This document shows positions 1 through 64,000 of a DNA stretch of 64,000 bases, in pieces. The stretch is taken from assembly GCA_002049455.2 (NCBI GenBank), contig KV919001.1, positions 1-64,000 of the forward strand, given 5' to 3'. The notes beneath the pieces are model-generated. The model was not told the DNA's origin. It saw nothing but the letters and a program-made list of their open reading frames with translations, and made no database searches. The position numbers and the translations under genes were made by a program. Origin of the DNA: Porphyra umbilicalis (Eukaryota > Rhodophyta > Bangiophyceae > Bangiales > Bangiaceae). Each line of letters starts with the position of its first letter. Position 1 is the stretch's first letter.

Positions 1-358
1 CCTCGCTCCCACGCAGCGCTCCCGCGCAGCGCTCAACGCTCGGTGCACGTCGGCTCCGCGGGCTCTGCCCAGTCGCTCAACTCGGGCACCAACAGGAGGT
101 GACAGAATCGTGGATTCGGGACTGCCTGACATGCTCCTCTCGTCAAAGCTCACCTGCCACGTGCTCCACGCGCGAAACGCCAACTGGCACGTGCTCCAAG
201 GTCGCTCCACGGTCGCTCCCACGGTCCGCTCCACAGTAGGTTCACGTTTGCTCGACGCTCGCTCCACGCTCGCGTGACGGGCCGGCGACAACTAATAGAG
301 GTGGGCGCGAGAAGCATGGCACGGAGGGATGGGAGTTGAGGCAAAAGTTTGGGAAAAA

Positions 359-478
359 ACGTACAGCACGGGGGATTCGCCTGTGATCCCTCACCAGACT
401 ACTAACCCCGCTCGCGGTCGCTTAGCTTCGGAATTCGGAATGGGTTCCGGCGCGTGTGACTCGGATATGGCCGTACGT
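359..478 (-). rRNA. 5S rRNA gene, copy 1 (reference)
   Basis: The RNA is the 5S component of the large ribosomal subunit. The 120-nt product begins ACGUACGGCCAUAUCC and ends CCCCCGUGCUGUACGU. Nine terminal bases pair into helix I with one G-U pair. Family hallmarks are GGCCAUA near the 5' end, the loop C segment CCCAUUCCGAA (RNA 36-46), GAAGCUAAGC (50-59), GGUUAGUA (72-79) with GAAU (101-104) forming loop E, and UGCUGUACG at the 3' end. The segments CGGAA (30-34) and UUCCG (46-50) form helix III, and GUCU/AGGC plus GUGA/UCAC close the helix IV-V arm over a GGGA loop. T6 follows. Ends are chosen from helix I and the T run. A protein reading of this strand or its complement is not supported. 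Confidence 0.95.
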
Positions 479-640
479 GGGATGAAAAGGTCGTCTGTGC
501 GCCTAGTCCCCGCGGACCCTCGGGCCACCGACGTGTACTCGTCGGCCTCCTACACCCTGTGACTGTCCCTCGTGTCGACGGCGGCCCCTGGGAGCAGCAG
601 GACGTCGCACCGCGACGTCGCGCCAGCGGCTAGAGCTCCT

Positions 641-666
641 CGCTCCCACGCAGCGCTCCCGCGCAG
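641..666. repeat. 13-bp direct repeat in the spacer
   Basis: Two copies of CGCTCCCRCGCAG lie side by side, followed by a related CGCTCAACGCTCGG. In family A the two copies differ by one base; in family B (for example 16605-16630) they are identical, consistent with conversion between them. Confidence 0.75.
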
Positions 667-794
667 CGCTCAACGCTCGGTGCACGTCGGCTCCGCGGGC
701 TCTGCCCAGTCGCTCAACTCGGGCACCAACAGGAGGTGACAGAATCGTGGATTCGGGACTGCCTGACATGCTCCTCTCGTCAAAGCTCACCTGC

Positions 795-829
795 CACGTG
801 CTCCACGCGCGAAACGCAACTGGCACGTG
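795..829. promoter_or_regulatory. Pair of CACGTG palindromes 29 bp apart
   Basis: CACGTG occurs at 795-800 and 824-829, both inside the longer direct repeat CACGTGCTCCA. The hexamer is the core E-box/G-box target of bHLH factors. Both are kept in families A and B. Binding is not shown; they may simply be ancestral copies of the neighbouring repeat. Confidence 0.35.
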
Positions 830-916
830 CTCCAAGGTCGCTCCACGGTCGCTCCACGGTCGCTCCACAGTAGGTTCACGTTTGCTCGACGCTCGCTCCA
901 CGCTCGCGTGACGGGC
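829..916. repeat. 11-bp minisatellite in the spacer
   Basis: Eight head-to-tail 11-mers fit exactly here: GCTCCAAGGTC, GCTCCACGGTC twice, GCTCCACAGTA, GGTTCACGTTT, GCTCGACGCTC, GCTCCACGCTC and GCGTGACGGGC. The array starts about 77 bp past the 3' end of the next 5S gene and is present in every unit. Clean length variants of the 634-bp unit come from gains of 33 or 44 bp here. Confidence 0.88.
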
Positions 917-976
917 CGGCGACAACTAATAGAGGTGGGCGCGAGAAGCATGGCACGGAGGGATGGGAGTTGAGGC

Positions 977-980
977 AAAA
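977..980 (-). terminator. Second T4 tract, possible back-up terminator
   Basis: Seven bases beyond the T6 tract the transcript strand has a second T4 tract, kept in every unit seen. Four T can end polymerase III transcription in animals, but many fungi need longer tracts, so its role is inferred. Confidence 0.45.
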
Positions 981-987
981 GTTTGGG

Positions 988-993
988 AAAAAA
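988..993 (-). terminator. Polymerase III T6 terminator of 5S copy 2
   Basis: Six A on the plus strand give T6 directly at the 3' end of the RNA; the first T is also the last paired base of helix I. Nearly every copy has the same tract. Copies 28, 38, 53, 54, 57, 74, 79, 80, 82, 87 and 95 have only T5. Confidence 0.9.
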
Positions 994-1015
994 CGTACAG
1001 CACGGGGGATTCGCC

Positions 1016-1033
1016 TGTGATCCCTCACCAGAC
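1016..1033 (-). promoter_or_regulatory. Internal box C of 5S copy 2 (present in almost every copy)
   Basis: RNA positions 80-97 cover the place of box C in known 5S genes, the main TFIIIA contact in the family. The sequence is divergent from the vertebrate box and forms the GUGA-GGGA-UCAC hairpin, so the assignment is by position. Confidence 0.6.
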
Positions 1034-1048
1034 TACTAACCCCGCTCG

Positions 1049-1063
1049 CGGTCGCTTAGCTTC
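1049..1063 (-). promoter_or_regulatory. Internal box A of 5S copy 2 (present in almost every copy)
   Basis: RNA positions 50-64 read GAAGCUAAGCGACCG. The GAAGCUAAGC core matches the box A of the type-1 internal polymerase III promoter at the same place in vertebrate 5S genes. The assignment rests on position and sequence. Copy 93 has an inserted T in this element. Confidence 0.8.
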
Positions 1064-1118
1064 GGAATTCGGAATGGGTTCCGGCGCGTGTGACTCGGAT
1101 ATGGCCGTACGTGGGATG

Positions 1119-1122
1119 AAAA
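1119..1122 (-). other. Conserved TTTT just upstream of the 5S start
   Basis: The transcript strand has TTTT 7-10 bases before the inferred 5' end of copy 2, and the same tract precedes the gene in nearly all units. It could stop transcripts arriving from the upstream unit or be a start-site element. No TATA-like box is visible here. Confidence 0.4.
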
Positions 1123-1626: not shown

Positions 1627-1746
1627 ACGTACAGCACGGGGGATTCGCCTGTGATCCCTCACCAGACTACTAACCCCGCTCGCGGTCGCTTAGCTTCGGA
1701 ATTCGGAATGGGTTCCGGCGCGTGTGACTCGGATATGGCCGTACGT
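1627..1746 (-). rRNA. 5S rRNA gene, copy 3
   Basis: Intact, T6, family A spacer. Confidence 0.95.
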
Positions 1747-13907: not shown

Positions 13908-14420
13908 GGGATGAAAAGGTCGTCTGTGCGCCTAGTCCCGCGGACCCTCGGGCCACCGACGTGTACTCGTCGGCCTCCTACACCCTGTGACTGTCCCTCG
14001 TGTCGACGGCGGCCCCTGGGAGCAGCAGGACGTCGCACCGCGACGTCGCGCCAGCGGCTAGAGCTCCTCGCTCCCACGCAGCGCTCCCGCGCAGCGCTCA
14101 ACGCTCGGTGCACGTCGGCTCCGCGGGCTCTGCCCAGTCGCTCAACTCGGGCACCAACAGGAGGTGACAGAATCGTGGATTCGGGACTGCCTGACATGCT
14201 CCTCTCGTCAAAGCTCACCTGCCACGTGCTCCACGCGCGAAAACGCAACTGGCACGTGCTCCAAGGTCGCTCCACGGTCGCTCCACGGTCGCTCCACAGT
14301 AGGTTCACGTTTGCTCGACGCTCGCTCCACGCTCGCGTGACGGGCCGGCGACAAGTAATAGAGTTGGGCGCGAGAAGCATGGCACGGAGGGATGGGAGTT
14401 GAGGCAAAAGTTGGGAAAAA

Positions 14421-14540
14421 ACGTACAGCACGGGGGATTCGCCTGTGATCCCTCACCAGACTACTAACCCCGCTCGCGGTCGCTTAGCTTCGGAATTCGG
14501 AATGGGTTCCGGCGCGTGTGACTCGGATATGGCCGTACGT
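14421..14540 (-). rRNA. 5S rRNA gene, copy 23
   Basis: Intact, T6; one base is missing between the two T tracts past the gene. Confidence 0.95.
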
Positions 14541-15054
14541 GGGATGAAAAGGTCGTCTGTGCGCCTAGTCCCGCGGACCCTCGGGCCACCGACGTGTACT
14601 CGTCGCCCTCCTACACCCTGTGACTGTCCCTCGTGTCGACGGCGGCCCCTGGGAGCAGCAGGACGTCGCACCGCGACCTCGCGCCAGCGGACAGAGCTCC
14701 TCGCTCCCACGCAGCGCTCCCGCGCAGCGCTCAACGCTCGGTGCACGTCGGCTCCGCGGGCTCTGCCCAGTCGCTCAACTCGGGCACCAACAGGAGGTGA
14801 CAGAATCGTGGATTCGGGACTGCCTGACATGCTCCTCTCGTCAAAGCTCACCTGCCACGTGCTCCACGCGCGAAAACGCAACTGGCACGTGCTCCAAGGT
14901 CGCTCCACGGTCGCTCCACGGTCGCTCCACAGTAGGTTCACGTTTGCTCGACGCTCGCTCCACGCTCGCGTGACGGGCCGGCGACAAGTAATAGAGTTGG
15001 GCGCGAGAAGCATGGCACGGAGGGATGGGAGTTGAGGCAAAAGTTTGGGAAAAA

Positions 15055-15174
15055 ACGTACAGCACGGGGGATTCGCCTGTGATCCCTCACCAGACTACTA
15101 ACCCCGCTCGCGGTCGCTTAGCTTCGGAATTCGGAATGGGTTCCGGCGCGTGTGACTCGGATATGGCCGTACGT
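15055..15174 (-). rRNA. 5S rRNA gene, copy 24
   Basis: Intact, T6, transition unit. Confidence 0.95.
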
Positions 15175-15686
15175 GGGATGAAAAGGTCGTCTGTGCGCCT
15201 AGTCCCGCGGACCCTCGGGCCACCGACGTGTACTCGTCGCCCTCCTACACCCTGTGACTGTCCCTCGTGTCGACGGCGGCCCCTGGGAGCAGCAGGACGT
15301 CGCACCGCGACCTCGCGCCAGCGGACAGAGCTCCTCGCTCCCGCGCAGCGCTCCCGCGCAGCGCTCAACGCTCGGTGCACGTCGGCTCCGCGGCTCTGCC
15401 CAGTCGCTCAACTCGGGCACCAACAGGAGGTGACAGAATCGTGGATTCGGGACTGCCTGACATGCTCCTCTCGTCAAAGCTCACCTGCCACGTGCTCCAC
15501 GCGCGAAAACGCAACTGGCACGTGCTCCAAGGTCGCTCCACGGTCGCTCCACGGTCGCTCCACAGTAGGTTCATGTTTGCTCGACGCTCGCTCCACGCTC
15601 GCGTGACGGGCCGGCGACAAGTAATAGGTTGGGCGCGAGAAGCATGGCACGGAGGGATGGGAGTTGAGGCAAAAGTTTGGGAAAAA

Positions 15687-15806
15687 ACGTACAGCACGGG
15701 GGATTCGCCTGTGATCCCTCACCAGACTACTAACCCCGCTCGCGGTCGCTTAGCTTCGGAATTCGGAATGGGTTCCGGCGCGTGTGACTCGGATATGGCC
15801 GTACGT
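15687..15806 (-). rRNA. 5S rRNA gene, copy 25
   Basis: Intact, T6, transition unit. Confidence 0.95.
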
Positions 15807-16320
15807 GGGATGAAAAGGTCGTCTGTGCGCCTAGTCCCGCGGACCCTCGGGCCACCGACGTGTACTCGTCGCCCTCCTACACCCTGTGACTGTCCCTCGT
15901 GTCGACGGCGGCCCCTGGGAGCAGCAGGACGTCGCACCGCGACCTCGCGCCAGCGGACAGAGCTCCTCGCTCCCGCGCAGCGCTCCCGCGCAGCGCTCAA
16001 CGCTCGGTGCACGTCGGCTCCGCGGGCTCTGCCCAGTCGCTCAACTCGGGCACCAACAGGAGGTGACAGAATCGTGGATTCGGGACTGCCTGACATGCTC
16101 CTCTCGTCAAAGCTCACCTGCCACGTGCTCCACGCGCGAAAACGCAACTGGCACGTGCTCCAAGGTCGCTCCACGGTCGCTCCACGGTCGCTCCACAGTA
16201 GGTTCATGTTTGCTCGACGCTCGCTCCACGCTCGCGTGACGGGCCGGCGACAAGTAATAGAGTTGGGCGCGAGAAGCATGGCACGGAGGGATGGGAGTTG
16301 AGGCAAAAGTTTGGGAAAAA

Positions 16321-16440
16321 ACGTACAGCACGGGGGATTCGCCTGTGATCCCTCACCAGACTACTAACCCCGCTCGCGGTCGCTTAGCTTCGGAATTCGG
16401 AATGGGTTCCGGCGCGTGTGACTCGGATATGGCCGTACGT
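16321..16440 (-). rRNA. 5S rRNA gene, copy 26
   Basis: Intact, T6; first full family B unit, gene unchanged from family A. Confidence 0.95.
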
Positions 16441-23934: not shown

Positions 23935-23970
23935 ACGTACAGCACGGGGATTCGCCTGTGATCCCTCACC
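23935..23970 (-). rRNA. 5S rRNA gene, copy 38 (3' end only, cut by gap)
   Basis: Only the last 36 bases of the gene precede the N run. T5 terminator and one G missing in the G5 run, as in other low-quality spots. Confidence 0.9.
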
Positions 23971-24818
23971 NNNNNNNNNNNNNNNNNNNNNNNNNNNNNN
24001 NNNNNNNNNNNNNNNNNNNNNNNNNNNNNNNNNNNNNNNNNNNNNNNNNNNNNNNNNNNNNNNNNNNNNNNNNNNNNNNNNNNNNNNNNNNNNNNNNNNN
24101 NNNNNNNNNNNNNNNNNNNNNNNNNNNNNNNNNNNNNNNNNNNNNNNNNNNNNNNNNNNNNNNNNNNNNNNNNNNNNNNNNNNNNNNNNNNNNNNNNNNN
24201 NNNNNNNNNNNNNNNNNNNNNNNNNNNNNNNNNNNNNNNNNNNNNNNNNNNNNNNNNNNNNNNNNNNNNNNNNNNNNNNNNNNNNNNNNNNNNNNNNNNN
24301 NNNNNNNNNNNNNNNNNNNNNNNNNNNNNNNNNNNNNNNNNNNNNNNNNNNNNNNNNNNNNNNNNNNNNNNNNNNNNNNNNNNNNNNNNNNNNNNNNNNN
24401 NNNNNNNNNNNNNNNNNNNNNNNNNNNNNNNNNNNNNNNNNNNNNNNNNNNNNNNNNNNNNNNNNNNNNNNNNNNNNNNNNNNNNNNNNNNNNNNNNNNN
24501 NNNNNNNNNNNNNNNNNNNNNNNNNNNNNNNNNNNNNNNNNNNNNNNNNNNNNNNNNNNNNNNNNNNNNNNNNNNNNNNNNNNNNNNNNNNNNNNNNNNN
24601 NNNNNNNNNNNNNNNNNNNNNNNNNNNNNNNNNNNNNNNNNNNNNNNNNNNNNNNNNNNNNNNNNNNNNNNNNNNNNNNNNNNNNNNNNNNNNNNNNNNN
24701 NNNNNNNNNNNNNNNNNNNNNNNNNNNNNNNNNNNNNNNNNNNNNNNNNNNNNNNNNNNNNNNNNNNNNNNNNNNNNNNNNNNNNNNNNNNNNNNNNNNN
24801 NNNNNNNNNNNNNNNNNN
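23971..24818. other. Assembly gap, 848 N
   Basis: The run begins 36 bases into 5S copy 38 and ends six bases before the 3' end of copy 39. Staying in register would need about 593 or about 1228 missing bases, so 848 fits neither and the length is probably an estimate. Confidence 0.97.
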
Positions 24819-24824
24819 GAAAAA

Positions 24825-24944: not shown

Positions 24945-25456
24945 GGGATGAAAAGGTCGTCTGTGCGCCTAGTCCCGCGGACCCTCGGGCCACCGACGTG
25001 TACTCGTCGGCCTCCTACACCCTGTGACTGTCCCTCGTGTCGACGGCGGCCCCTGGGAGCAGCAGGACGTCGCACCGCGACGTCGCGCCAGCGGCTAGAG
25101 CTCCTCGCTCCCACGCAGCGCTCCCGCGCAGCGCTCAACGCTCGGTGCACGTCGGCTCCGCGGGCTCTGCCCAGTCGCTCAACTCGGGCACCAACAGGAG
25201 GTGACAGAATCGTGGATTCGGGACTGCCTGACATGCTCCTCTCGTCAAAGCTCACCTGCCACGTGCTCCACGCGCGAAAACGCAACTGGCACGTGCTCCA
25301 AGGTCGCTCCACGGTCGCTCCACGGTCGCTCCACAGTAGGTTCAGTTTGCTCGACGCTCGCTCCACGCTCGCGTGACGGGCCGGCGACAAGTAATAGAGT
25401 GGGCGCGAGAAGCATGGCACGGAGGGATGGGAGTTGAGGCAAAAGTTTGGGAAAAA

Positions 25457-25576
25457 ACGTACAGCACGGGGGATTCGCCTGTGATCCCTCACCAGACTAC
25501 TAACCCCGCTCGCGGTCGCTTAGCTTCGGAATTCGGAATGGGTTCCGGCGCGTGTGACTCGGATATGGCCGTACGT
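25457..25576 (-). rRNA. 5S rRNA gene, copy 40
   Basis: Intact, T6, hybrid spacer. Confidence 0.95.
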
Positions 25577-26086
25577 GGGATGAAAAGGTCGTCTGTGCGC
25601 CTAGTCCCGCGGACCCTCGGGCCACCGACGTGTACTCGTCGCCTCCTACACCCTGTGACTGTCCCTCGTGTCGACGGCGGCCCCTGGGAGCAGCAGGACG
25701 TCGCACCGCGACGTCGCGCCAGCGGATAGAGCTCCTCGCTCCCGCAGCGCTCCCGCGCAGCGCTCAACGCTCGGTGCACGTCGGCTCCGCGGGCTCTGCC
25801 CAGTCGCTCAACTCGGGCACCAACAGGAGGTGACAGAATCGTGGATTCGGGACTGCCTGACATGCTCCTCTCGTCAAAGCTCACCTGCCACGTGCTCCAC
25901 GCGCGAAAACGCAACTGGCACGTGCTCCAAGGTCGCTCCACGGTCGCTCCACGGTCGCTCCACAGTAGGTTCATGTTTGCTCGACGCTCGCTCCACGCTC
26001 GCGTGACGGGCGGCGACAAGTAATAGAGTTGGGCGCGAGAAGCATGGCACGGAGGGATGGGAGTTGAGGCAAAAGTTTGGGAAAAA

Positions 26087-26206
26087 ACGTACAGCACGGG
26101 GGATTCGCCTGTGATCCCTCACCAGACTACTAACCCCGCTCGCGGTCGCTTAGCTTCGGAATTCGGAATGGGTTCCGGCGCGTGTGACTCGGATATGGCC
26201 GTACGT
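26087..26206 (-). rRNA. 5S rRNA gene, copy 41
   Basis: Intact, T6, hybrid spacer. Confidence 0.95.
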
Positions 26207-26717
26207 GGGATGAAAAGGTCGTCTGTGCGCCTAGTCCCGCGGACCCTCGGGCCACCGACGTGTACTCGTCGGCCTCCTACACCCTGTGACTGTCCCTCGT
26301 GTCGACGGCGGCCCCTGGGAGCAGCAGGACGTCGCACCGCGACGTCGCGCCAGCGGATAGAGCTCCTCGCTCCCACGCAGCGCTCCCGCGCAGCGCTCAA
26401 CGCTCGGTGCACGTCGGCTCCGCGGGCTCTGCCCAGTCGCTCAACTCGGGCACCAACAGGAGGTGACAGAATCGTGGATTCGGGACTGCCTGACATGCTC
26501 CTCTCGTCAAAGCTCACCTGCCACGTGCTCCACGCGCGAAAACGCAACTGGCACGTGCTCCAAGGTCGCTCCACGGTCGCTCCACGGTCGCTCCACAGTA
26601 GGTTCAGTTTGCTCGACGCTCGCTCCACGCTCGCGTGACGGGCGGCGACAATAATAGAGTTGGGCGCGAGAAGCATGGCACGGAGGGATGGGAGTTGAGG
26701 CAAAAGTTTGGGAAAAA

Positions 26718-26837
26718 ACGTACAGCACGGGGGATTCGCCTGTGATCCCTCACCAGACTACTAACCCCGCTCGCGGTCGCTTAGCTTCGGAATTCGGAAT
26801 GGGTTCCGGCGCGTGTGACTCGGATATGGCCGTACGT
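26718..26837 (-). rRNA. 5S rRNA gene, copy 42
   Basis: Intact, T6, hybrid spacer. Confidence 0.95.
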
Positions 26838-27374
26838 GGGATGAAAAGGTCGTCTGTGCGCCTAGTCCCGCGGACCCGGGCCACCGACGTGTACTCGTCG
26901 CCCTCCTACACCCTGTGACTGTCCCTCGTGTCGACGGCGGCCCCTGGGAGCAGCAGGACGTCGCACCGCGACGTCGCGCCAGCGGTAGAGCTCCTCGCTC
27001 CACGCAGCGCTCCCGCGCAGCGCTCAACGCTCGGTGCACGTCGGCTCCGCGGGCTCTGCCCAGTCGCTCAACTCGGGCACCAACAGGAGGTGACAGAATC
27101 GTGGATTCGGGACTGCCTGACATGCTCCTCTCGTCAAAGCTCACCTGCCACGTGCTCCACGCGCGAAACGCAACTGGCACGTGCTCCAAGGTCGCTCCAC
27201 GGTCGCTCCACGGTCGCTCCACAGTAGGTTCAGTTTGCTCGACGCTCGCTCACGCTCGCTCACGGCACTGCTCGACGCTCGCTACGCTCGCGTGACGGGC
27301 CGGCGACAATAATAGAGTGGGCGCGAGAAGCATGGCACGGAGGGATGGGAGTTGAGGCAAAAGTTTGGGAAAAA

Positions 27375-27494
27375 ACGTACAGCACGGGGGATTCGCCTGT
27401 GATCCCTCACCAGACTACTAACCCCGCTCGCGGTCGCTTAGCTTCGGAATTCGGAATGGGTTCCGGCGCGTGTGACTCGGATATGGCCGTACGT
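27375..27494 (-). rRNA. 5S rRNA gene, copy 43
   Basis: Intact, T6; irregular minisatellite past the terminator. Confidence 0.95.
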
Positions 27495-28041
27495 GGGATG
27501 AAAAGGTCGTCTGTGCGCCTAGTCCCGCGGACGCCTCGGGCCACCGACGTGTACTCGTCGGCCTCCTACACCCTGTGACTGTCCCTCGTGTCGACGGCGG
27601 CCCCTGGGAGCAGCAGGACGTCGCACCGCGACGTCGCGCCAGCGGTAGAGCTCCTCGCTCCCACGCAGCGCTCCCGCGCAGCGCTCAACGCTCGGTGCAC
27701 GTCGGCTCCGCGGGCTCTGCCCAGTCGCTCAACTCGGGCACCAACAGGAGGTGACAGAATCGTGGATTCGGGACTGCCTGACATGCTCCTCTCGTCAAAG
27801 CTCACCTGCCACGTGCTCCACGCGCGAAAACGCAACTGGCACGTGCTCCAAGGTCGCTCCACGGTCGCTCCACGGTCGCTCCACAGTAGGTTCAGTTGCT
27901 CGACGCTCGCTCACGCTCGCTCACAGTAGTACGTTGCTCGACGCTCGCTCCAGCTCGCGTGACGGCCGGCGACAATAATAGAGTTGGGCGCGAGAAGCAT
28001 GGCACGGAGGGATGGGAGTTGAGGCAAAAGTTTGGGAAAAA

Positions 28042-28161
28042 ACGTACAGCACGGGGGATTCGCCTGTGATCCCTCACCAGACTACTAACCCCGCTCGCGG
28101 TCGCTTAGCTTCGGAATTCGGAATGGGTTCCGGCGCGTGTGACTCGGATATGGCCGTACGT
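28042..28161 (-). rRNA. 5S rRNA gene, copy 44
   Basis: Intact, T6; irregular minisatellite past the terminator. Confidence 0.95.
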
Positions 28162-28672
28162 GGGATGAAAAGGTCGTCTGTGCGCCTAGTCCCCGCGGAC
28201 CCCGGGCCACCGACGTGTACTCGTCGGCCTCCTACACCCTGTGACTGTCCCTCGTGTCGACGGCGGCCCCTGGGAGCAGCAGGACGTCGCACCGCGACGT
28301 CGCGCCAGCGGCTAGAGCTCCTCGCTCCCACGCAGCGCTCCCGCGCAGCGCTCAACGCTCGGTGCACGTCGGCTCCGCGGGCTCTGCCCAGTCGCTCAAC
28401 TCGGGACCAACAGGAGGTGACAGAATCGTGGATTCGGGACTGCCTGACATGCTCCTCTCGTCAAAGCTCACCTGCCACGTGCTCCACGCGCGAAACGCAA
28501 CTGGCACGTGCTCCAAGGTCGCTCCACGGTCGCTCCACGGTCGCTCCACAGTAGGTTCAGTTTGCTCGACGCTCGCTCCACGCTCGCGTGACGGGCCGGC
28601 GACAATAATAGAGGTGGGCGCGGAGAAGCATGGCACGGAGGGATGGGAGTTGAGGCAAAAGTTTGGGAAAAA

Positions 28673-28792
28673 ATCGGTACAGCACGGGGGATTCGCCTGT
28701 ATCCCTCACCAGACTACTAACCCCGCTCGCGGTCGCTTAGCTTCGGAATTCGGAATGGGTTCGGCGCGTGTGACTCGGATATGGCCGTACGT
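28673..28792 (-). rRNA. 5S rRNA gene, copy 45 (altered)
   Basis: Two bases are inserted in the 3' strand of helix I, and one base is lost at each of two internal places. Probably a consensus error rather than a functional variant. Confidence 0.85.
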
Positions 28793-29298
28793 GGGATGAA
28801 AAGGTCGTCTGTGCGCCTAGTCCCGCGACCCTCGGGCCACCGACGTGTACTCGTCGGCCTCCTACACCCTGTGATGTCCCTCGTGTCGACGGCGGCCCCT
28901 GGGAGCAGCAGGACGTCGCACCGCGACGTCGCGCCAGCGGTAGAGCTCCTCGCTCCCACGCAGCGCTCCCCGCGCAGCGCTCAACGCTCGGTGCACGTCG
29001 GCTCCGCGGGCTCTGCCCAGTCGCTCAATCGGGCACCAACAGGAGGTGACAGAATCGTGGATTCGGGACTGCCTGACATGCTCCTCTCGTCAAAGCTCAC
29101 CTGCCACGTGCTCCACGCGGAAACGCAACTGGCACGTGCTCCAAGGTCGCTCCACGGTCGCTCCACGGTCGCTCCACAGTAGGTTCAGTTTGCTCGACGC
29201 TCGCTCCACGCTCGCGTGACGGGCCGGCGACAACTAATAGAGTGGCGCGAGAAGCATGGCACGGAGGGATGGGAGTTGAGGCAAAAGTTTGGGAAAAA

Positions 29299-29413
29299 AC
29301 GTACAGCACGGGGGATTCGCCTGTGATCCCTCACAGACTACTAACCCCTCGCGGTCGTTAGCTTCGGAATTCGGAATGGGTTCCGGGCGTGTGACTCGGA
29401 TATGGCCGTACGT
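29299..29413 (-). rRNA. 5S rRNA gene, copy 46 (altered, 115 nt)
   Basis: Five bases are missing at separate places, including in box A. It lies in a stretch where the spacer also loses bases. Confidence 0.85.
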
Positions 29414-29908
29414 GGGATGAAAAGGTCGTCTGTGCGCCTAGTCCCGCGGACCCTCGGGCCACCGACTGTACTCGTCGGCCTCCTACACCTGTGACTGTCC
29501 CTCGTGTCGACGGCGGCCCTGGAGCAGCAGGACGTCGCACCGCGACGTCGCGCCAGCGGCTAGAGCTCTCGCTCCCACGCAGCGCTCCCGCGCAGCGCTC
29601 AACGCTCGGTGCACGTCGGCTCGCGGCCTCTGCCCAGTCGCTCAACTCGGGCACCAACAGGAGGTGACAGAATCGTGGATTCGGGACTGCTGACATGCTC
29701 CTCTCGTCAAAGCTCACTGCCACGTGCTCCACGCGAAACGCAACTGGCACGTGCTCCAAGTCGCTCCACGGTCGTCCACGGTCGCTCCACAGTAGGTTCA
29801 GTTTGCTCGACGCTCGCTCCACGCTCGCGTGACGGGCCGGCGACAATAATAGAGTGGGCGAGAAGCATGGACGGAGGGATGGGAGTTGAGGCAAAAGTTT
29901 GGGAAAAA

Positions 29909-30028
29909 ACGTACAGCACGGGGGATTCGCCTGTGATCCCTCACCAGACTACTAACCCCGCTCGCGGTCGCTTAGCTTCGGAATTCGGAATGGGTTCCGG
30001 CGCGTGTGACTCGGATATGGCCGTACGT
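29909..30028 (-). rRNA. 5S rRNA gene, copy 47
   Basis: Intact, T6, in a damaged spacer; the 5' flank T4 tract is one T short. Confidence 0.94.
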
Positions 30029-30533
30029 GGGATGAAAGGTCGTCTGGCGCCTAGTCCGCGGACCCTCGGGCCACCGACGTGTACTCGTCGGCCTCCTACA
30101 CCCTGTGACTGTCCCTCGTGTCGACGGCGGCCCCTGGGAGCAGCAGGACGTCGCACCGCGACTCGCGCCAGGGATAGAGCTCCTCGCTCCCCGCAGCGCT
30201 CCCGCGCAGCGCTCACGCTCGGTGCACGTCGGCTCCGCGGGCTCTGCCCAGTCGCTCAACTCGGGCACCAACAGGAGGTGACAGAATCGTGGATTCGGGA
30301 CTGCCTGACATGCTCCTCTCGTCAAAGCTCACCTGCCACGTGCTCCACGCGCGAAAACGCAACTGGCACGTGCTCCAAGGTCGTCCACGGTCGCTCCACG
30401 GTCGCTCCACAGTAGGTTCATGTTTGCTCGACGCTCGCTCCACGCTCGCGTGACGGGCCGGCGACAAGTAATAGAGTTGGGCGCGAGAAGCATGGCACGG
30501 AGGGATGGAGTTGAGGCAAAAGTTTGGGAAAAA

Positions 30534-30650
30534 ACGTACAGCACGGGGGATTCGCCTGTGATCCCTCACCAGACTACTAACCCCGCTCGCGTCGCTTAGC
30601 TTCGGAATTCGGAATGGGTTCCGGCGCGTGTGACTCGGATATGCGTACGT
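30534..30650 (-). rRNA. 5S rRNA gene, copy 48 (altered, 117 nt)
   Basis: Two bases are missing close to the 5' end, where GGCC is normal, and one near RNA 63. Confidence 0.87.
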
Positions 30651-31148
30651 GGGATAAAAGGTCGTCTGTGCGCCTAGTGCCCGCGGACCCTCGGCCACCG
30701 ACGTGTACTCGTCGCCCCTACACCCTGTGACTGCCCTCGGTCGACGGGGCCCCTGGGAGCAGCAGGACGTCGCACCGCGACCTCGCGCCAGCGGATAGAG
30801 CTCCTCGCTCCCGCGCAGCGCTCCCGCGCAGCGCTCAACCTCGGTGCACGTCGGCTCCGCGGGCTCTGCCCAGTCGCTCAACTCGGGCACCAACAGGAGG
30901 TGACAGAACGTGGATTCGGACTGCCTGACATGCTCCTCTCGTCAAAGCTCACCTGCCACGTGCTCCACGCGCGAAAACGCAACTGGCACTGCTCCAAGGT
31001 CGCTCCACGGTCGCTCCACGGTCGCTCCACAGTAGGTTCATGTTTGCTCGACGCTCGCTCCACGCTCGCGTGACGGGACGCGACAAGTAATAGAGTGGCG
31101 CGAGAAGCATGGCACGAGGGATGGAGTTGAGGCAAAAGTTGGGAAAAA

Positions 31149-31267
31149 ACGTACAGCACGGGGGATTCGCCTGTGATCCCTCACCAACTACTAACCCCGC
31201 TCGCGGTCGCTTAGCTTCGGAATTCGGAATGGGTTCCGGCGCGTGTGACTCGGATATGGCCGTACGT
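31149..31267 (-). rRNA. 5S rRNA gene, copy 49 (119 nt)
   Basis: One base is missing near RNA 81; otherwise normal. Confidence 0.92.
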
Positions 31268-31780
31268 GGGATGAAAAGGTCGTCTGTGCGCCTAGTGCCC
31301 GCGGACCCTCGGGCCACCGACGTGTACTCGTCGCCCTCCTACACCCTGTGACTGTCCCTCGTGTCGACGGCGGCCCCTGGGAGCAGCAGGACGTCGCACC
31401 GCGACCTCGCGCCAGCGGATAGAGCTCCTCGCTCCCGCGCAGCGCTCCCGCGCAGCGCTCAACGCTCGGTGCACGTCGGCTCCGCGGGCTCTGCCCAGTC
31501 GCTCAACTCGGGCACCAACAGGAGGTGACAGAATCGTGGATTCGGGACTGCCTGACATGCTCCTCTCGTCAAAGCTCACCTGCCACGTGCTCCACGCGCG
31601 AAAACGCAACTGGCACGTGCTCCAAGGTCGCTCCACGGTCGCTCCACGGTCGCTCCACAGTAGGTCATGTTTGCTCGACGCTCGCTCCACGCTCGCGTGA
31701 CGGACGGCGACAAGTAATAGAGTTGGGCGCGAGAAGCATGGCACGGAGGGATGGGAGTTGAGGCAAAAGTTTGGGAAAAA

Positions 31781-36208: not shown

Positions 36209-36328
36209 ACGTACAGCACGGGGGATTCGCCTGTGATCCCTCACCAGACTACTAACCCCGCTCGCGGTCGCTTAGCTTCGGAATTCGGAATGGGTTCCGG
36301 CGCGTGTGACTCGGATATGGCCGTACGT
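36209..36328 (-). rRNA. 5S rRNA gene, copy 57
   Basis: Intact, T5, hybrid spacer. Confidence 0.95.
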
Positions 36329-36839
36329 GGGATGAAAAGGTCGTCTGTGCGCCTAGTCCCGCGGACCTCGGGCCACCGACGTGTACTCGTCGCCCTCCTA
36401 CACCCTGTGACTGTCCCTCGTGTCGACGGCGGCCCCTGGGAGCAGCAGGACGTCGCACCGCGACCTCGCGCCAGCGGATAGAGCTCCTCGCTCCCCGCAG
36501 CGCTCCCGCGCAGCGCTCAACGCTCGGTGCACGTCGGCTCCGCGGGCTCTGCCCAGTCGCTCAACTCGGGCACCAACAGGAGGTGACAGAATCGTGGATT
36601 CGGGACTGCCTGACATGCTCCTCTCGTCAAAGCTCACCTGCCACGTGCTCCACGCGCGAAAACGCAACTGGCACGTGCTCCAAGGTCGCTCCACGGTCGC
36701 TCCACGGTCGCTCCACAGTAGGTTCATGTTTGCTCGACGCTCGCTCCACGCTCGCGTGACGGGCCGGCGACAAGTAATAGAGTTGGCGCGAGAAGCATGG
36801 CACGGAGGGATGGGAGTTGAGGCAAAAGTTTGGGAAAAA

Positions 36840-36959
36840 ACGTACAGCACGGGGGATTCGCCTGTGATCCCTCACCAGACTACTAACCCCGCTCGCGGTC
36901 GCTTAGCTTCGGAATTCGGAATGGGTTCCGGCGCGTGTGACTCGGATATGGCCGTACGT
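36840..36959 (-). rRNA. 5S rRNA gene, copy 58
   Basis: Intact, T6, hybrid spacer. Confidence 0.95.
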
Positions 36960-37461
36960 GGGATGAAAAGGTCGTCTGTGCGCCTAGTCCCGCGGACCCT
37001 CGGGCCACCGACGTGTACTCGTCGCCTCCTACACCCTGTGACTGTCCCTCGTGTCGACGGCGGCCCCTGGAGCAGCAGGACGTCGCACCGCGACGTCGCG
37101 CCAGCGGATAGAGCTCCTCGCTCCCACGCAGCGCTCCCGCGCAGCGCTCAACGCTCGGTGCACGTCGGCTCCGCGGGCTCTGCCCATCGCTCAACTCGGG
37201 CACCAACAGGAGGTACAGAATCGTGGATTCGGGACTGCCTGACATGCTCTCTCGTCAAAGCTCACCTGCCACGTGCTCCACGCGAAAACGCAACTGGCAC
37301 TGCTCCAAGGTCGCTCCACGGTCGCTCCACGGTCGCTCCACAGTAGGTTCATTTTGCTCGACGCTCGCTCCACGCTCGCGTGACGGGCCGCCGACAAGTA
37401 ATAGAGTGGCGCGAGAAGCATGGCACGAGGGATGGGAGTTGAGGCAAAAGTTTGGGAAAAA

Positions 37462-37580
37462 ACGTACAGCACGGGGGATTCGCCTGTGATCCCTCACCAA
37501 CTACTAACCCCGCTCGCGGTCGCTTAGCTTCGGAATTCGGAATGGGTTCCGGCGCGTGTGACTCGGATATGGCCGTACGT
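37462..37580 (-). rRNA. 5S rRNA gene, copy 59 (119 nt)
   Basis: One base is missing near RNA 81, the same loss as in copy 49. Confidence 0.92.
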
Positions 37581-38084
37581 GGATGAAAAGTCGTCTGTGC
37601 GCCTAGTCCCGCGGACCCTCGGGCCACCGACGTGTACTCGTCGCCCTCCTACACCCTGTGACTTCCCTCGGTCGACGGCGGCCCCTGGGAGCAGCAGGAC
37701 GTCGCACCGCGACTCGCGCCAGCGGATAGAGCTCCTCGCTCCCGCGCAGCGCTCCCGCGCAGCGCTCAACGCTCGGTGCACGTCGGCTCCGCGGGCTCTG
37801 CCCAGTCGCTCAACTCGGGCACCAACAGGAGGTGACAGAATCGTGGATTCGGGACTGCCTGACATGCTCCTCTCGTCAAAGCTCACCTGCCACGTGCTCC
37901 ACGCGCGAAAACGCAACTGGCACGTGCTCCAAGGTCGCTCCACGGTCGCTCCACGGTCGCTCCACAGTAGGTTCATGTTGCTCGACGCTCGCTCCACGCT
38001 CGCGTGACGGGCGGCGACAAGTAATAGATTGGGCGCGAGAAGCATGGCACGGAGGATGGAGTTGAGGCAAAAGTTTGGGAAAAA

Positions 38085-38203
38085 ACGTACAGCACGGGGG
38101 ATTCGCCTGTGATCCCTCACCAGACTACTAACCCCGCTCGCGGTCGCTTAGCTTCGGAATTCGGAATGGGTTCCGGCGCGTGTGACTCGGATATGGCCGA
38201 CGT
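38085..38203 (-). rRNA. 5S rRNA gene, copy 60 (119 nt)
   Basis: One base is missing in the 5' strand of helix I. Confidence 0.92.
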
Positions 38204-38713
38204 GGATGAAAAGGTCGTCTGTGCGCCTAGTCCCGCGGACCCTCGGCCACCGACGTGTACTCGTCGGCCTCCTACACCCTGTGACTGTCCCTCGTGTCGA
38301 CGGCGGCCCCTGGGAGCAGCAGGACGTCGCACCGCGACTCGCGCCAGCGGATAGAGCTCCTCGCTCCCACGCAGCGCTCCCGCGCAGCGCTCAACGCTCG
38401 GTGCACGTCGGCTCCGCGGCTCTGCCCAGTCGCTCAACTCGGGCACCAACAGGAGGTGACAGAATCGTGGATTCGGGACTGCCTGACATGCTCCTCTCGT
38501 CAAAGCTCACCTGCCACGTGCTCCACGCGCGAAAACGCCAACTGGCACGTGCTCCAAGGTCGCTCCACGGTCGCTCCACGGTCGCTCCACAGTAGGTTCA
38601 GTTTGCTCGACGCTCGCTCCACGCTCGCGTGACGGGACGGCGACAACTAATAGAGGTGGGCGCGAGAAGCATGGCACGGAGGGATGGGAGTTGAGGCAAA
38701 AGTTTGGGAAAAA

Positions 38714-38832
38714 ACGTACAGCACGGGGATTCGCCTGTGATCCCTCACCAGACTACTAACCCCGCTCGCGGTCGCTTAGCTTCGGAATTCGGAATGGGTT
38801 CCGGCGCGTGTGACTCGGATATGGCCGTACGT
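38714..38832 (-). rRNA. 5S rRNA gene, copy 61 (119 nt)
   Basis: One base is missing in the C5 run near the 3' end; clean family A spacer. Confidence 0.92.
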
Positions 38833-49594: not shown

Positions 49595-50103
49595 GGGATG
49601 AAAAGGTCGTCTGTGCGCCTAGTCCCGCGGACCCTCGGGCCACCGACGTGTACTCGTCGCCTCCTACACCCTGTGACTGTCCCTCGTGTCGACGGCGGCC
49701 CCTGGGAGCAGCAGGACGTCGCACCGCGACGTCGCGCCAGCGGCTAGAGCTCCTCGCTCCCACGCAGCGCTCCCGCGCAGCGCTCAACGCTCGGTGCACG
49801 TCGGCTCCGCGGGCTCTGCCCAGTCGCTCAACTCGGGCACCAACAGGAGGTGACAGAATCGTGGATTCGGGACTGCCTGACATGCTCCTCTCGTCAAAGC
49901 TCACCTGCCACGTGCTCCACGCGCGAAACGCAACTGGCACGTGCTCCAAGGTCGCTCCACGGTCGCTCCACGGTCGCTCCACAGTAGGTTCATGTTTGCT
50001 CGACGCTCGCTCCACGCTCGCGTGACGGGCCGGCGACAATAATAGAGTGGGCGCGAGAAGCATGGCACGGAGGGATGGGAGTTGAGGCAAAAGTTTGGGA
50101 AAA

Positions 50104-50223
50104 ACGTACAGCACGGGGGATTCGCCTGTGATCCCTCACCAGACTACTAACCCCGCTCGCGGTCGCTTAGCTTCGGAATTCGGAATGGGTTCCGGCGCGT
50201 GTGACTCGGATATGGCCGTACGT
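50104..50223 (-). rRNA. 5S rRNA gene, copy 79
   Basis: Intact, T5. Confidence 0.95.
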
Positions 50224-50737
50224 GGGATGAAAAGGTCGTCTGTGCGCCTAGTGCCCGCGGACCCTCGGGCCACCGACGTGTACTCGTCGCCCTCCTACAC
50301 CCTGTGACTGTCCCTCGTGTCGACGGCGGCCCCTGGGAGCAGCAGGACGTCGCACCGCGACCTCGCGCCAGCGGATAGAGCTCCTCGCTCCCCGCAGCGC
50401 TCCCGCGCAGCGCTCAACGCTCGGTGCACGTCGGCTCCGCGGGCTCTGCCCAGTCGCTCAACTCGGGCACCAACAGGAGGTGACAGAATCGTGGATTCGG
50501 GACTGCCTGACATGCTCCTCTCGTCAAAGCTCACCTGCCACGTGCTCCACGCGCGAAAACGCAACTGGCACGTGCTCCAAGGTCGCTCCACGGTCGCTCC
50601 ACGGTCGCTCCACAGTAGGTTCATGTTTGCTCGACGCTCGCTCCACGCTCGCGTGACGGGACGGCGACAAGTAATAGAGTTGGGCGCGAGAAGCATGGCA
50701 CGGAGGGATGGGAGTTGAGGCAAAAGTTTGGGGAAAA

Positions 50738-50856
50738 ACGTACAGCACGGGGGATTCGCCTGTGATCCCTCACCAGACTACTACCCCGCTCGCGGTCGCT
50801 TAGCTTCGGAATTCGGAATGGGTTCCGGCGCGTGTGACTCGGATATGGCCGTACGT
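50738..50856 (-). rRNA. 5S rRNA gene, copy 80 (119 nt)
   Basis: T5, and one base missing at GGUUAG (RNA 72-77). Confidence 0.92.
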
Positions 50857-51363
50857 GGGATGAAAAGGTCGTCTGTGCGCCTAGTGCCCGCGGACGCTCG
50901 GGCCACCGACGTGTACTCGTCGCCTCCTACACCCTGTGACTGTCCCTCGTGTCGACGGCGGCCCCTGGGAGCAGCAGGACGTCGCACCGCGACCTCGCGC
51001 CAGGATAGAGCTCCTCGCTCCCGCGCAGCGCTCCCGCGCAGCGCTCAACGCTCGGTGCACGTCGGCTCGCGGGCTTGCCCAGTCGCTCAACTCGGGCACC
51101 AACAGGAGGTGACAGAATCGTGGATTCGGGACTGCCTGACATGCTCCTCTCGTCAAAGCTCACCTGCCACGTGCTCCACGCGCGAAACGCAACTGGCACG
51201 TGCTCCAAGGTCGCTCCACGGTCGCTCCACGGTCGCTCCACAGTAGGTTCATGTTTGCTCGACGCTCGCTCCACGCTCGCGTGACGGGCCGGCGACAATA
51301 ATAGAGTGGGCGCGAGAAGCATGGCACGGAGGGATGGGAGTTGAGGCAAAAGTTTGGGAAAAA

Positions 51364-51482
51364 ACGTACAGCACGGGGGATTCGCCTGTGATCCCTCACC
51401 AGACTACTAACCCCGCTCGCGGTCGCTTAGCTTCGGAATTCGGAATGGGTTCCGGCGCGTGTGACCGAATATGGCCGTACGT
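51364..51482 (-). rRNA. 5S rRNA gene, copy 81 (119 nt, altered)
   Basis: One base missing and one substitution near RNA 15-20, next to the collapsed gap. Confidence 0.9.
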
Positions 51483-51571
51483 GGGATGAAAAGGTCGTCT
51501 GTGCGCCTAGTCCCGCGACCCACGGGCCACCGACGTGTACTCGTCGGCCCCTACACCCTGTGACTGTCCCT

Positions 51572-51572
51572 N
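51572..51572. other. Single N marking a collapsed gap
   Basis: Left of the N is sequence that normally lies about 80 bp upstream of a 5S start; right of it is minisatellite. About 300 bp of spacer are missing here. Confidence 0.9.
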
Positions 51573-51698
51573 CGCTCACAGTAGTTCACGTTTGCTCGAC
51601 GCTCGCTCCACGCTCGCGTGACGGCGGCGACAATAATAGAGGTGGGCGCGAGAAGCATGGCACGGAGGGATGGGAGTTGAGGCAAAAGTTTGGGAAAA

Positions 51699-51816
51699 AC
51701 GTACAGCACGGGGGATTCGCCTGTGATCCCTACCAGACTACTAACCCGCTCGCGGTCGCTTAGCTTCGGAATTCGGAATGGGTTCCGGCGCGTGTGACTC
51801 GGATATGGCCGTACGT
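51699..51816 (-). rRNA. 5S rRNA gene, copy 82 (118 nt)
   Basis: T5, with one base missing near RNA 88 and one in the G4 run at RNA 70-73. Confidence 0.9.
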
Positions 51817-58712: not shown

Positions 58713-58786
58713 ACGTACAGCACGGGGGATTCGCCTGTGATCCCTCACCAGACTACTAACCCCGCTCGCGGTCGCTTTAGCTTCGG
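58713..58786 (-). pseudogene. 5S rRNA pseudogene, copy 93 (5' part deleted)
   Basis: The 3' part, RNA 48-120, and the T6 tract are present. A 53-bp deletion then joins the gene interior to the A4 tract of the 5' flank, removing RNA 1-47 and the start site. A T is also inserted in box A. The break has AA microhomology on both sides. Without the 5' strand of helix I and most of helices II and III it cannot make a normal 5S rRNA. It may be real or an assembly error, since it lies in a damaged stretch. Confidence 0.85.
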
Positions 58787-59315
58787 AAAAGGTGCGTCTG
58801 TGCGCCTAGTGCCCGCGGACCCTCGGGCCACCGACGTGTACTCGTCGGCCTCCTACACCCTGTGACTGTCCCTCGTGTCGACGGCGGCCCCTGGGAGCAG
58901 CAGGACGTCCGCACCGCGACGTCGCGCCAGCGGTAGAGCTCCTCGCTCCACGCAGCGCTCCCGCGCAGCGCTCAACGCTCGGTGCACGTCGGCTCCGCGG
59001 GCTCTGCCCAGTCGCTCAACTCGGGCACCAACAGGAGGTGACAGAATCGTGGATTCGGGACTGCCTGACATGCTCCTCTCGTCAAAGCTCACCTGCCACG
59101 TGCTCCACGCGCGAAAACGCAACTGGCACGTGCTCCAAGGTCGCTCCACGGTCGCTCCACGGTCGCTCCACAGTAGGTTCAGTTGCTCGACGTCGCATCC
59201 AGTGTCAGTGCTCGACGCTCGCTCCACGCTCGCGTGACGGGCGGCGACAATAATAGAGTGGGCGCGAGAAGCATGGCACGGAGGGATGGGAGTTGAGGCA
59301 AAAGTTTGGGAAAAA

Positions 59316-59867: not shown

Positions 59868-60116
59868 NNNNNNNNNNNNNNNNNNNNNNNNNNNNNNNNN
59901 NNNNNNNNNNNNNNNNNNNNNNNNNNNNNNNNNNNNNNNNNNNNNNNNNNNNNNNNNNNNNNNNNNNNNNNNNNNNNNNNNNNNNNNNNNNNNNNNNNNN
60001 NNNNNNNNNNNNNNNNNNNNNNNNNNNNNNNNNNNNNNNNNNNNNNNNNNNNNNNNNNNNNNNNNNNNNNNNNNNNNNNNNNNNNNNNNNNNNNNNNNNN
60101 NNNNNNNNNNNNNNNN
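59868..60116. other. Assembly gap, 249 N, probably hiding one 5S gene
   Basis: The flanks are minisatellite on the left and the 5' flank of a 5S gene on the right. A normal unit has about 280 bp between these points, including a whole 5S gene. Flanking copies 94 and 95 are 1267 bp apart, about two units. Confidence 0.85.
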
Positions 60117-60582: not shown

Positions 60583-60702
60583 ACGTACAGCACGGGGGAT
60601 TCGCCTGTGATCCCTCACCAGACTACTAACCCCGCTCGCGGTCGCTTAGCTTCGGAATTCGGAATGGGTTCCGGCGCGTGTGACTCGGATATGGCCGTAC
60701 GT
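60583..60702 (-). rRNA. 5S rRNA gene, copy 95
   Basis: Intact, T5; first gene after the second N run. Confidence 0.95.
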
Positions 60703-61218
60703 GGGATGAAAAGGTCGTCTGTGCGCCTAGTGCCCGCGGACGCTCGGGCCACCGACGTGTACTCGTCGGCCTCCTACACCCTGTGACTGTCCCTCGTGTC
60801 GACGGCGGCCCCTGGGAGCAGCAGGACGTCGCACCGCGACCTCGCGCCAGCGGATAGAGCTCCTCGCTCCCGCGCAGCGCTCCCGCGCAGCGCTCAACTC
60901 TCGGTGCACGTCGGCTCCGCGGGCTCTGCCCAGTCGCTCAACTCGGGCACCAACAGGAGGTGACAGAATCGTGGATTCGGGACTGCCTGACATGCTCCTC
61001 TCGTCAAAGCTCACCTGCCACGTGCTCCACGCGCGAAAACGCAACTGGCACGTGCTCCAAGGTCGCTCCACGGTCGCTCCACGGTCGCTCCACAGTAGGT
61101 TCATGTTTGCTCGACGCTCGCTCCACGCTCGCGTGACGGGACCGGCGACAAGTAATAGAGTTGGGCGCGAGAAGCATGGCACGGAGGGATGGGAGTTGAG
61201 GCAAAAGTTTGGGAAAAA

Positions 61219-61338
61219 ACGTACAGCACGGGGGATTCGCCTGTGATCCCTCACCAGACTACTAACCCCGCTCGCGGTCGCTTAGCTTCGGAATTCGGAA
61301 TGGGTTCCGGCGCGTGTGACTCGGATATGGCCGTACGT
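61219..61338 (-). rRNA. 5S rRNA gene, copy 96
   Basis: Intact, T6; the spacer past its terminator carries both alternative bases at one diagnostic site (near 61141). Confidence 0.95.
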
Positions 61339-61853
61339 GGGATGAAAAGGTCGTCTGTGCGCCTAGTGCCCGCGGACCCTCGGGCCACCGACGTGTACTC
61401 GTCGCCCTCCTACACCCTGTGACTGTCCCTCGTGTCGACGGCGGCCCCTGGGAGCAGCAGGACGTCGCACCGCGACCTCGCGCCAGCGGATAGAGCTCCT
61501 CGCTCCCGCGCAGCGCTCCCGCGCAGCGCTCAACGCTCGGTGCACGTCGGCTCCGCGGGCTCTGCCCAGTCGCTCAACTCGGGCACCAACAGGAGGTGAC
61601 AGAATCGTGGATTCGGGACTGCCTGACATGCTCCTCTCGTCAAAGCTCACCTGCCACGTGCTCCACGCGCGAAAACGCAACTGGCACGTGCTCCAAGGTC
61701 GCTCCACGGTCGCTCCACGGTCGCTCCACAGTAGGTTCATGTTTGCTCGACGCTCGCTCCACGCTCGCGTGACGGGACGGCGACAAGTAATAGAGTTGGG
61801 CGCGAGAAGCATGGCACGGAGGGATGGGAGTTGAGGCAAAAGTTTGGGAAAAA

Positions 61854-61973
61854 ACGTACAGCACGGGGGATTCGCCTGTGATCCCTCACCAGACTACTAA
61901 CCCCGCTCGCGGTCGCTTAGCTTCGGAATTCGGAATGGGTTCCGGCGCGTGTGACTCGGATATGGCCGTACGT
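61854..61973 (-). rRNA. 5S rRNA gene, copy 97
   Basis: Intact, T6, family B. Confidence 0.95.
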
Positions 61974-62488
61974 GGGATGAAAAGGTCGTCTGTGCGCCTA
62001 GTGCCCGCGGACGCTCGGGCCACCGACGTGTACTCGTCGGCCTCCTACACCCTGTGACTGTCCCTCGTGTCGACGGCGGCCCCTGGGAGCAGCAGGACGT
62101 CGCACCGCGACCTCGCGCCAGCGGATAGAGCTCCTCGCTCCCGCGCAGCGCTCCCGCGCAGCGCTCAACGCTCGGTGCACGTCGGCTCCGCGGGCTCTGC
62201 CCAGTCGCTCAACTCGGGCACCAACAGGAGGTGACAGAATCGTGGATTCGGGACTGCCTGACATGCTCCTCTCGTCAAAGCTCACCTGCCACGTGCTCCA
62301 CGCGCGAAAACGCAACTGGCACGTGCTCCAAGGTCGCTCCACGGTCGCTCCACGGTCGCTCCACAGTAGGTTCATGTTTGCTCGACGCTCGCTCCACGCT
62401 CGCGTGACGGGACGGCGACAAGTAATAGAGTTGGGCGCGAGAAGCATGGCACGGAGGGATGGGAGTTGAGGCAAAAGTTTGGGAAAAA

Positions 62489-62608
62489 ACGTACAGCACG
62501 GGGGATTCGCCTGTGATCCCTCACCAGACTACTAACCCCGCTCGCGGTCGCTTAGCTTCGGAATTCGGAATGGGTTCCGGCGCGTGTGACTCGGATATGG
62601 CCGTACGT
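62489..62608 (-). rRNA. 5S rRNA gene, copy 98
   Basis: Intact, T6, family B. Confidence 0.95.
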
Positions 62609-63124
62609 GGGATGAAAAGGTCGTCTGTGCGCCTAGTGCCCGCGGACGCTCGGGCCACCGACGTGTACTCGTCGGCCTCCTACACCCTGTGACTGTCCCT
62701 CGTGTCGACGGCGGCCCCTGGGAGCAGCAGGACGTCGCACCGCGACCTCGCGCCAGCGGATAGAGCTCCTCGCTCCCGCGCAGCGCTCCCGCGCAGCGCT
62801 CAACGCTCGGTGCACGTCGGCTCCGCGGGCTCTGCCCAGTCGCTCAACTCGGGCACCAACAGGAGGTGACAGAATCGTGGATTCGGGACTGCCTGACATG
62901 CTCCTCTCGTCAAAGCTCACCTGCCACGTGCTCCACGCGCGAAAACGCAACTGGCACGTGCTCCAAGGTCGCTCCACGGTCGCTCCACGGTCGCTCCACA
63001 GTAGGTTCATGTTTGCTCGACGCTCGCTCCACGCTCGCGTGACGGGACGGCGACAAGTAATAGAGTTGGGCGCGAGAAGCATGGCACGGAGGGATGGGAG
63101 TTGAGGCAAAAGTTTGGGGAAAAA

Positions 63125-63244
63125 ACGTACAGCACGGGGGATTCGCCTGTGATCCCTCACCAGACTACTAACCCCGCTCGCGGTCGCTTAGCTTCGGAAT
63201 TCGGAATGGGTTCCGGCGCGTGTGACTCGGATATGGCCGTACGT
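63125..63244 (-). rRNA. 5S rRNA gene, copy 99
   Basis: Intact, T6; extra base between the T tracts. Confidence 0.95.
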
Positions 63245-63760
63245 GGGATGAAAAGGTCGTCTGTGCGCCTAGTGCCCGCGGACGCTCGGGCCACCGACGT
63301 GTACTCGTCGGCCTCCTACACCCTGTGACTGTCCCTCGTGTCGACGGCGGCCCCTGGGAGCAGCAGGACGTCGCACCGCGACCTCGCGCCAGCGGATAGA
63401 GCTCCTCGCTCCCGCGCAGCGCTCCCGCGCAGCGCTCAACGCTCGGTGCACGTCGGCTCCGCGGGCTCTGCCCAGTCGCTCAACTCGGGCACCAACAGGA
63501 GGTGACAGAATCGTGGATTCGGGACTGCCTGACATGCTCCTCTCGTCAAAGCTCACCTGCCACGTGCTCCACGCGCGAAAACGCAACTGGCACGTGCTCC
63601 AAGGTCGCTCCACGGTCGCTCCACGGTCGCTCCACAGTAGGTTCATGTTTGCTCGACGCTCGCTCCACGCTCGCGTGACGGGACGGCGACAAGTAATAGA
63701 GTTGGGCGCGAGAAGCATGGCACGGAGGGATGGGAGTTGAGGCAAAAGTTTGGGGAAAAA

Positions 63761-63880
63761 ACGTACAGCACGGGGGATTCGCCTGTGATCCCTCACCAGA
63801 CTACTAACCCCGCTCGCGGTCGCTTAGCTTCGGAATTCGGAATGGGTTCCGGCGCGTGTGACTCGGATATGGCCGTACGT
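63761..63880 (-). rRNA. 5S rRNA gene, copy 100
   Basis: Intact, T6; extra base between the T tracts. Its upstream spacer is cut by the window end. Confidence 0.95.
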
Positions 63881-64000
63881 GGGATGAAAAGGTCGTCTGT
63901 GCGCCTAGTGCCCGCGGACGCTCGGGCCACCGACGTGTACTCGTCGCCCTCCTACACCCTGTGACTGTCCCTCGTGTCGACGGCGGCCCCTGGGAGCAGC

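Follow-up and report, generated by a model that had tools for sequence, protein, structure and literature searches.

A tandem array of 5S rRNA genes filling a 64,000-base window of a very probably red algal genome

Organization of the array

The stretch of DNA considered here, referred to below as the window, corresponds to bases 1-64000 of a contig of 123,096 bases (C241) in an assembly of 83,822,817 bases and 665 contigs. Searches with the Rfam family RF00001 and with blastn indicate that its whole length (1..64000, minus strand) is the interior of a tandem array of 5S ribosomal DNA (rDNA), in which 98 full-length genes and 2 fragments succeed one another head to tail. When the window was scanned by cmscan with 4227 Rfam families at gathering thresholds, 98 matches were returned, all of them to RF00001 and all on the minus strand. 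Every one of these matches covers model positions 1-120, with scores of 53.5-88 bits for a gathering score of 38 and E-values ranging from 1.8e-17 to 2.3e-8. This single orientation is accompanied by a regular spacing, 77 of the 97 distances between successive core motifs being of 631-636 bp. No tRNA was detected in the window by ARAGORN, and no match to the repeat unit was found among plasmid sequences. A preliminary description of this DNA had proposed a 5S rDNA array in a single orientation, composed of 120-nt genes and expected to yield about 100 minus-strand matches to RF00001, which is in agreement with the 98 obtained here. The same description announced at least 100 genes, a figure slightly too high for the window, with its 98 full-length copies and 2 fragments; C241 as a whole holds 162.

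The first 5S rRNA gene of the window, named in the preliminary description, is found at 359-478 on the minus strand (RF00001, 83.4 bits, E 3e-16). The Rfam match spans 358-478 and the 120-nt gene itself 359-478. Its sequence, designated type I, is identical to that of 84 other copies in the window. A run of six T is observed at the 3' end of this gene (354-359, minus strand), the first T being the last base of the gene, and is presumed to act as a terminator for RNA polymerase III. This feature had been anticipated and is general: in C241, the last T of the gene is directly followed by T5 in 147 of the 162 copies and by T4 in 14 others, leaving a single copy with neither, so that 161 of the 162 carry the T4 or T5 expected of a type 1 gene of this polymerase.

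One complete unit of 634 bp, delimited from the unit table, extends from 479 to 1112 on the minus strand and comprises the gene at 993-1112 with its downstream spacer. In general, the unit measures about 635 bp and consists of the 120-nt gene, the T-run and a spacer of about 515 bp, within which Tandem Repeats Finder detects an 11-bp minisatellite (about 7 copies at 829-907 in the unit just mentioned). Longer units, of 657-678 bp, contain 31-44 extra bases and owe their length to additional copies of this minisatellite. With respect to the five-helix fold conserved in 5S rRNA, 30 of the 34 base pairs of the Rfam model are standard in the type I gene. Helix I has nine pairs, as had been noted beforehand; all nine are standard, one of them being G-U, and the letters cited for loop C, GAAGCTAAGC and GGTTAGTA/GAAT are likewise present in the sequence.

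The extent of the array was examined by blastn, which locates the 5S gene at 164 places on C241. In 162 of these the aligned stretch reaches at least 110 bases, the definition of a full-length copy used throughout, and the window accounts for 98 of them as well as for the two shorter places, which are its two fragments. The left end of the array is cut by the start of the contig, and its right end, determined by eye, lies at about 103,970. At the level of the genome, a 24-base core of the gene, searched with at most one mismatch, occurs 215 times, with 161 occurrences on C241 and 54 on the fetched part of another contig, C77. The genome-wide Rfam search for 5S genes scored 47 of 4277 candidates, and more diverged copies located elsewhere may have been missed. 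In the corresponding search for 5.8S genes, among the 39 scored out of 1711 candidates, matches were found on five contigs (C301, C207, C2, C171 and C23) and none on C241 or C77, and no linkage of 5S to 45S genes was seen.

The identity of the host was approached through its pigment proteins. Of 11 genome matches to the phycobilisome family PF00502, 10 are located on contig C665 (185,000 bases). The best matches in the PDB to the phycocyanin beta frame of this contig are phycocyanin beta chains. For its phycoerythrin beta frame, the top match bears the name 'Bacterial fluorescent protein beta'; R-phycoerythrin beta chains come next, and cryptophyte-named chains are placed lower. The phycobiliprotein genes of this contig make a red alga by far the likeliest host. 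C665 would be its plastid, in an assembly presumed to be unmixed. A narrower placement in the Bangiales (Porphyra, Pyropia), to which their 5S sequence might point, is not claimed.

Homogeneity and maintenance of the units

The genes of this array are nearly identical. The same 120 letters are shared by 85 of the 98 full-length copies in the window and by 143 of the 162 on C241, the 13 divergent copies of the window being all confined to the region between 28.6 and 51.9 kb. To compare genes and spacers, the intervals running from one full-length copy of C241 to the next, 161 in number, were considered, and 156 were aligned after five had been dropped on account of their length or of N. In these units, substitutions per site amount to 0.00027 in the gene versus 0.0078 in the spacer, and 4 of 120 sites are segregating in the gene versus 61 of 515 in the spacer (Fisher p 0.004).

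Nine diagnostic columns distinguish two spacer haplotypes, Ia and Ib, which are distributed mostly in blocks with mosaics between them. Haplotype Ia occupies 0.5-13.9 kb and 91.8-96.2 kb, and is met again around 46-49 and 52-53 kb. Haplotype Ib is almost pure at 16.4-22.8 and 60.7-91 kb, and the remainder is mosaic. At 13908-16440 (minus strand), four units change stepwise from Ia to Ib along the nine diagnostic columns.

Taken as a whole, the window is almost certainly the interior of the main 5S rRNA gene array, very probably located in the nucleus, of a host that is very probably a red alga, with units presumably transcribed by RNA polymerase III. Eukaryotic 5S genes are read by this polymerase from a promoter situated inside the gene, with the participation of TFIIIA, TFIIIC and TFIIIB. 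We infer that these are working genes, that the 5S gene of each unit is transcribed on the minus strand up to its T-run, and that the many copies would meet the demand for 5S rRNA. The units would be kept alike by unequal exchange and gene conversion, of which blocks of haplotypes are the pattern to be expected, and selection would hold the gene nearly free of variants as the spacer drifts. Several points nevertheless weigh against this interpretation. The low diversity of the gene may be due in part to a recent expansion of the array and not to selection. The copy number depends on an assembly that contains N runs and error-like deletions. Finally, the predicted fold of the type I gene is not exceptional, with a z of -1.24 and 18 of 200 shuffles folding at least as well; since the single-strand fold is so ordinary, the case for a 5S gene rests on the covariance model and not on fold energy.

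Two long N runs, of 848 bases (23971-24818) and 249 bases (59868-60116), hide the underlying sequence, and the absence of any other gene interrupting the array, claimed in the preliminary description, can be checked only outside of them. The first run cuts off a 5S gene, leaving a fragment at 23935-23970 on the minus strand (37 aligned columns by blastn). An internally deleted gene is found at 58713-58788 (minus strand); its 5' part is missing and blastn covers only gene positions 46-120. At 51364-51816 (minus strand), two genes are separated by only about 333 bp, with a single N at 51572, a distance that would reflect either the shortening of a unit or an error of the assembly. Most units have 0-4 deletion events, but as many as 15 are counted near 25-31, 36-38 and 50-51 kb, with a further rise at about 97 kb. 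Units rich in single-base deletions (25000-31300, 36300-38800 and 49600-51800) stand beside cleanly repeated ones. These deletion-rich units resemble unpolished long-read sequence and are tentatively read as assembly error.

It is consequently conceivable, though we hold it to be rather unlikely, that the length of the array and the order of its units are partly an artefact of assembly, in which case the genes would be real and the copy number and haplotype blocks unreliable. The N runs of 848, 1 and 249 bases, the clustering of deletions, with up to 15 events per unit, in a few stretches and a unit spacing of 333 bp all speak for such an artefact. It is opposed by the stretches at 60.7-91 kb and 1-13 kb, which are nearly free of deletions and keep a regular spacing of 634-636 bp, except in units extended by the minisatellite.

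A second 5S array

The occurrences of the gene core on C77 (273,551 bases) belong to a second array, which extends from 80,530 to 116,759. It comprises 54 genes for 5S rRNA, every one of them read on the minus strand, and its repeat unit measures about 681 bp. Two sequence classes are thus found in separate arrays, on C241 and C77, as in a dual 5S system. The C77 sequence, designated type II, differs from type I by the changes C25A, G26T, C59A, G72C, T75C and C105A. Positions 25, 59, 72, 75 and 105 are changed in all 54 copies (A in 52 and G in 2 at position 105) and position 26 in 53. Exactly these six changes are carried by 24 copies, and 21 distinct sequences exist among the 54. As to whether type II is the derived form, the letters of the Rfam consensus are split between the two types: type I has the consensus letter at 59, 72 and 75, type II at 25 and 105, and neither at 26.

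The spacers of C77 and C241 are recognisably related, which allows the divergence of the two arrays to be compared. Differences are found at 6 of 120 sites in the genes and, once 48 gap columns are set aside, at 147 of the 514 sites aligned in the spacers (p 2e-9). If half of the spacer divergence is assumed to have arisen on each side, a freely evolving type II gene should have acquired about 17 changes, and the probability of observing six or fewer is 0.001. Within C77, nucleotide diversity (pi) is 0.0137 in the gene, one third of the 0.0420 of the spacer, but segregating sites are not clearly fewer in the gene (19 of 120) than in the spacer (119 of 561; p 0.21). Given the six changes in place of about 17 and the lower diversity of the gene, the type II gene would have been subject to selection, or to conversion from type I, during much of its history.

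The structural comparison is less favorable to type II. The Rfam structure retains 28 standard pairs out of 34, versus 30 in type I, and both G26T (pair 26-54) and G72C (pair 72-107) break a standard pair without compensation. The predicted fold is also weaker (-34.1 versus -42.6 kcal/mol), neither value being far from those of shuffled sequences. Because of these two broken helix pairs, and because constraint within C77 looks weak, the likeliest reading of type II is that of a minor class or of one in decay.

That C77 is instead a second working class, the window being then one half of a dual 5S system, seems to us improbable. Such a reading would account for the separate homogenisation of the 54 copies, 24 of them identical, for the T4 or T5 that follows the gene in 53 of the 54, for a gene divergence far below that of the spacer, for the deficit of changes relative to free evolution and for the reduced pi of the gene. 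It is countered by the two uncompensated breaks, by the weaker fold and by the proportion of segregating gene sites, and conversion from type I could equally well hold the gene similar. Even more doubtful is the extended proposal of two working classes in separate arrays used in different life phases, with ribosomes able to contain two 5S RNAs, distinct from each other in loop E as well as in helices III and IV.

Comparison with known 5S systems

Eukaryotes commonly possess long tandem arrays of 5S genes, and in this sense the present one is ordinary. The oocyte and somatic 5S genes of the Xenopus type constitute a dual 5S system, and if type II proved to be transcribed, a dual system would exist in a red alga. 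A search of the literature, limited to the titles listed and therefore no proof of absence, turned up none dealing with a red algal 5S array. The window provides an assembled example of such an array from a very probably red algal host, and both arrays together form a small test bed in which likeness within an array can be set against drift between arrays.

In the beetle Tribolium castaneum, tandem 5S rDNA with a gene of 121 bp and a spacer of 71 bp has been described from a long-read assembly (PMC11202950). Both cases have in common arrays recovered by long-read assembly, in which each unit consists of a single 5S gene with its non-transcribed spacer; the units analysed here differ by their size (120 + about 515 bp), by the 11-bp minisatellite and by a host outside the animals. 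Two classes of 5S rDNA are known from freshwater stingrays (PMC3123226) and from the duckweed Spirodela polyrhiza (PMC11070557), which likewise possess two kinds of 5S unit per genome. The separate homogenisation of the clusters, described in the stingrays (PMC3123226), is shared by the arrays on C241 and C77. Unlike these two systems, the present one belongs very probably to a red alga, and its second class shows two uncompensated breaks of helix pairs.

Flanking retrotransposons

Beyond the array, from 104,001 to the end of C241 at 123,096, the GC content increases to 74-85% in 2-kb windows, versus 63-65% in the array. This flank contains a reverse-transcriptase frame recognized by PF00078 (36.1 bits for a cut-off of 29.6) and a second one that remains under the same cut-off (26.5 bits). 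Between the two stretches lies an isolated 5S copy (115,829-115,948, 67.1 bits), which carries G-to-A changes at 43, 50, 60 and 90 and an A-to-G change at 92. Elements with a reverse transcriptase lie next to 5S units near C241:103,970 and C241:116,256, and also, by eye only, near C77:117,100. An association of 5S units with Jockey-like retrotransposons has been described in Tribolium freemani (PMC11202950), where the elements are likewise next to the 5S units; here, however, they are found beyond the window, where the array ends, and belong to a family present on many contigs.

This vicinity, together with the repetitive and GC-rich nature of the array and the 19 of 162 full-length copies of C241 that depart from the main form, could suggest that the window is a mostly untranscribed satellite or pseudogene array derived from 5S DNA, the working genes being elsewhere, but this is extremely improbable in view of the 143 identical genes maintained amid variable spacers and of a core pattern which, allowing one mismatch at most, was found only on C241 and in the more divergent array of C77, more diverged copies being liable to escape the genome search.

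The element family of the flank was matched in 113 stretches, some of which are pieces of one copy. Since the family matches many places in the genome, the proximity of an element to the array cannot be taken as a sign of targeting. A retrotransposon directed to 5S genes was considered as a candidate and set aside, the family being widespread and its junctions, inspected by eye, having no common position in the spacer. The reverse-transcriptase domain of the flank also recurs on a single strand with a spacing of about 8 kb on contigs C57, C394, C210, C596, C271, C24 and C36, the arrangement to be expected if a LINE-like element (long interspersed nuclear element) were clustered head to tail. 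In some green algae, head-to-tail clusters of LINE-like elements mark the centromeres.

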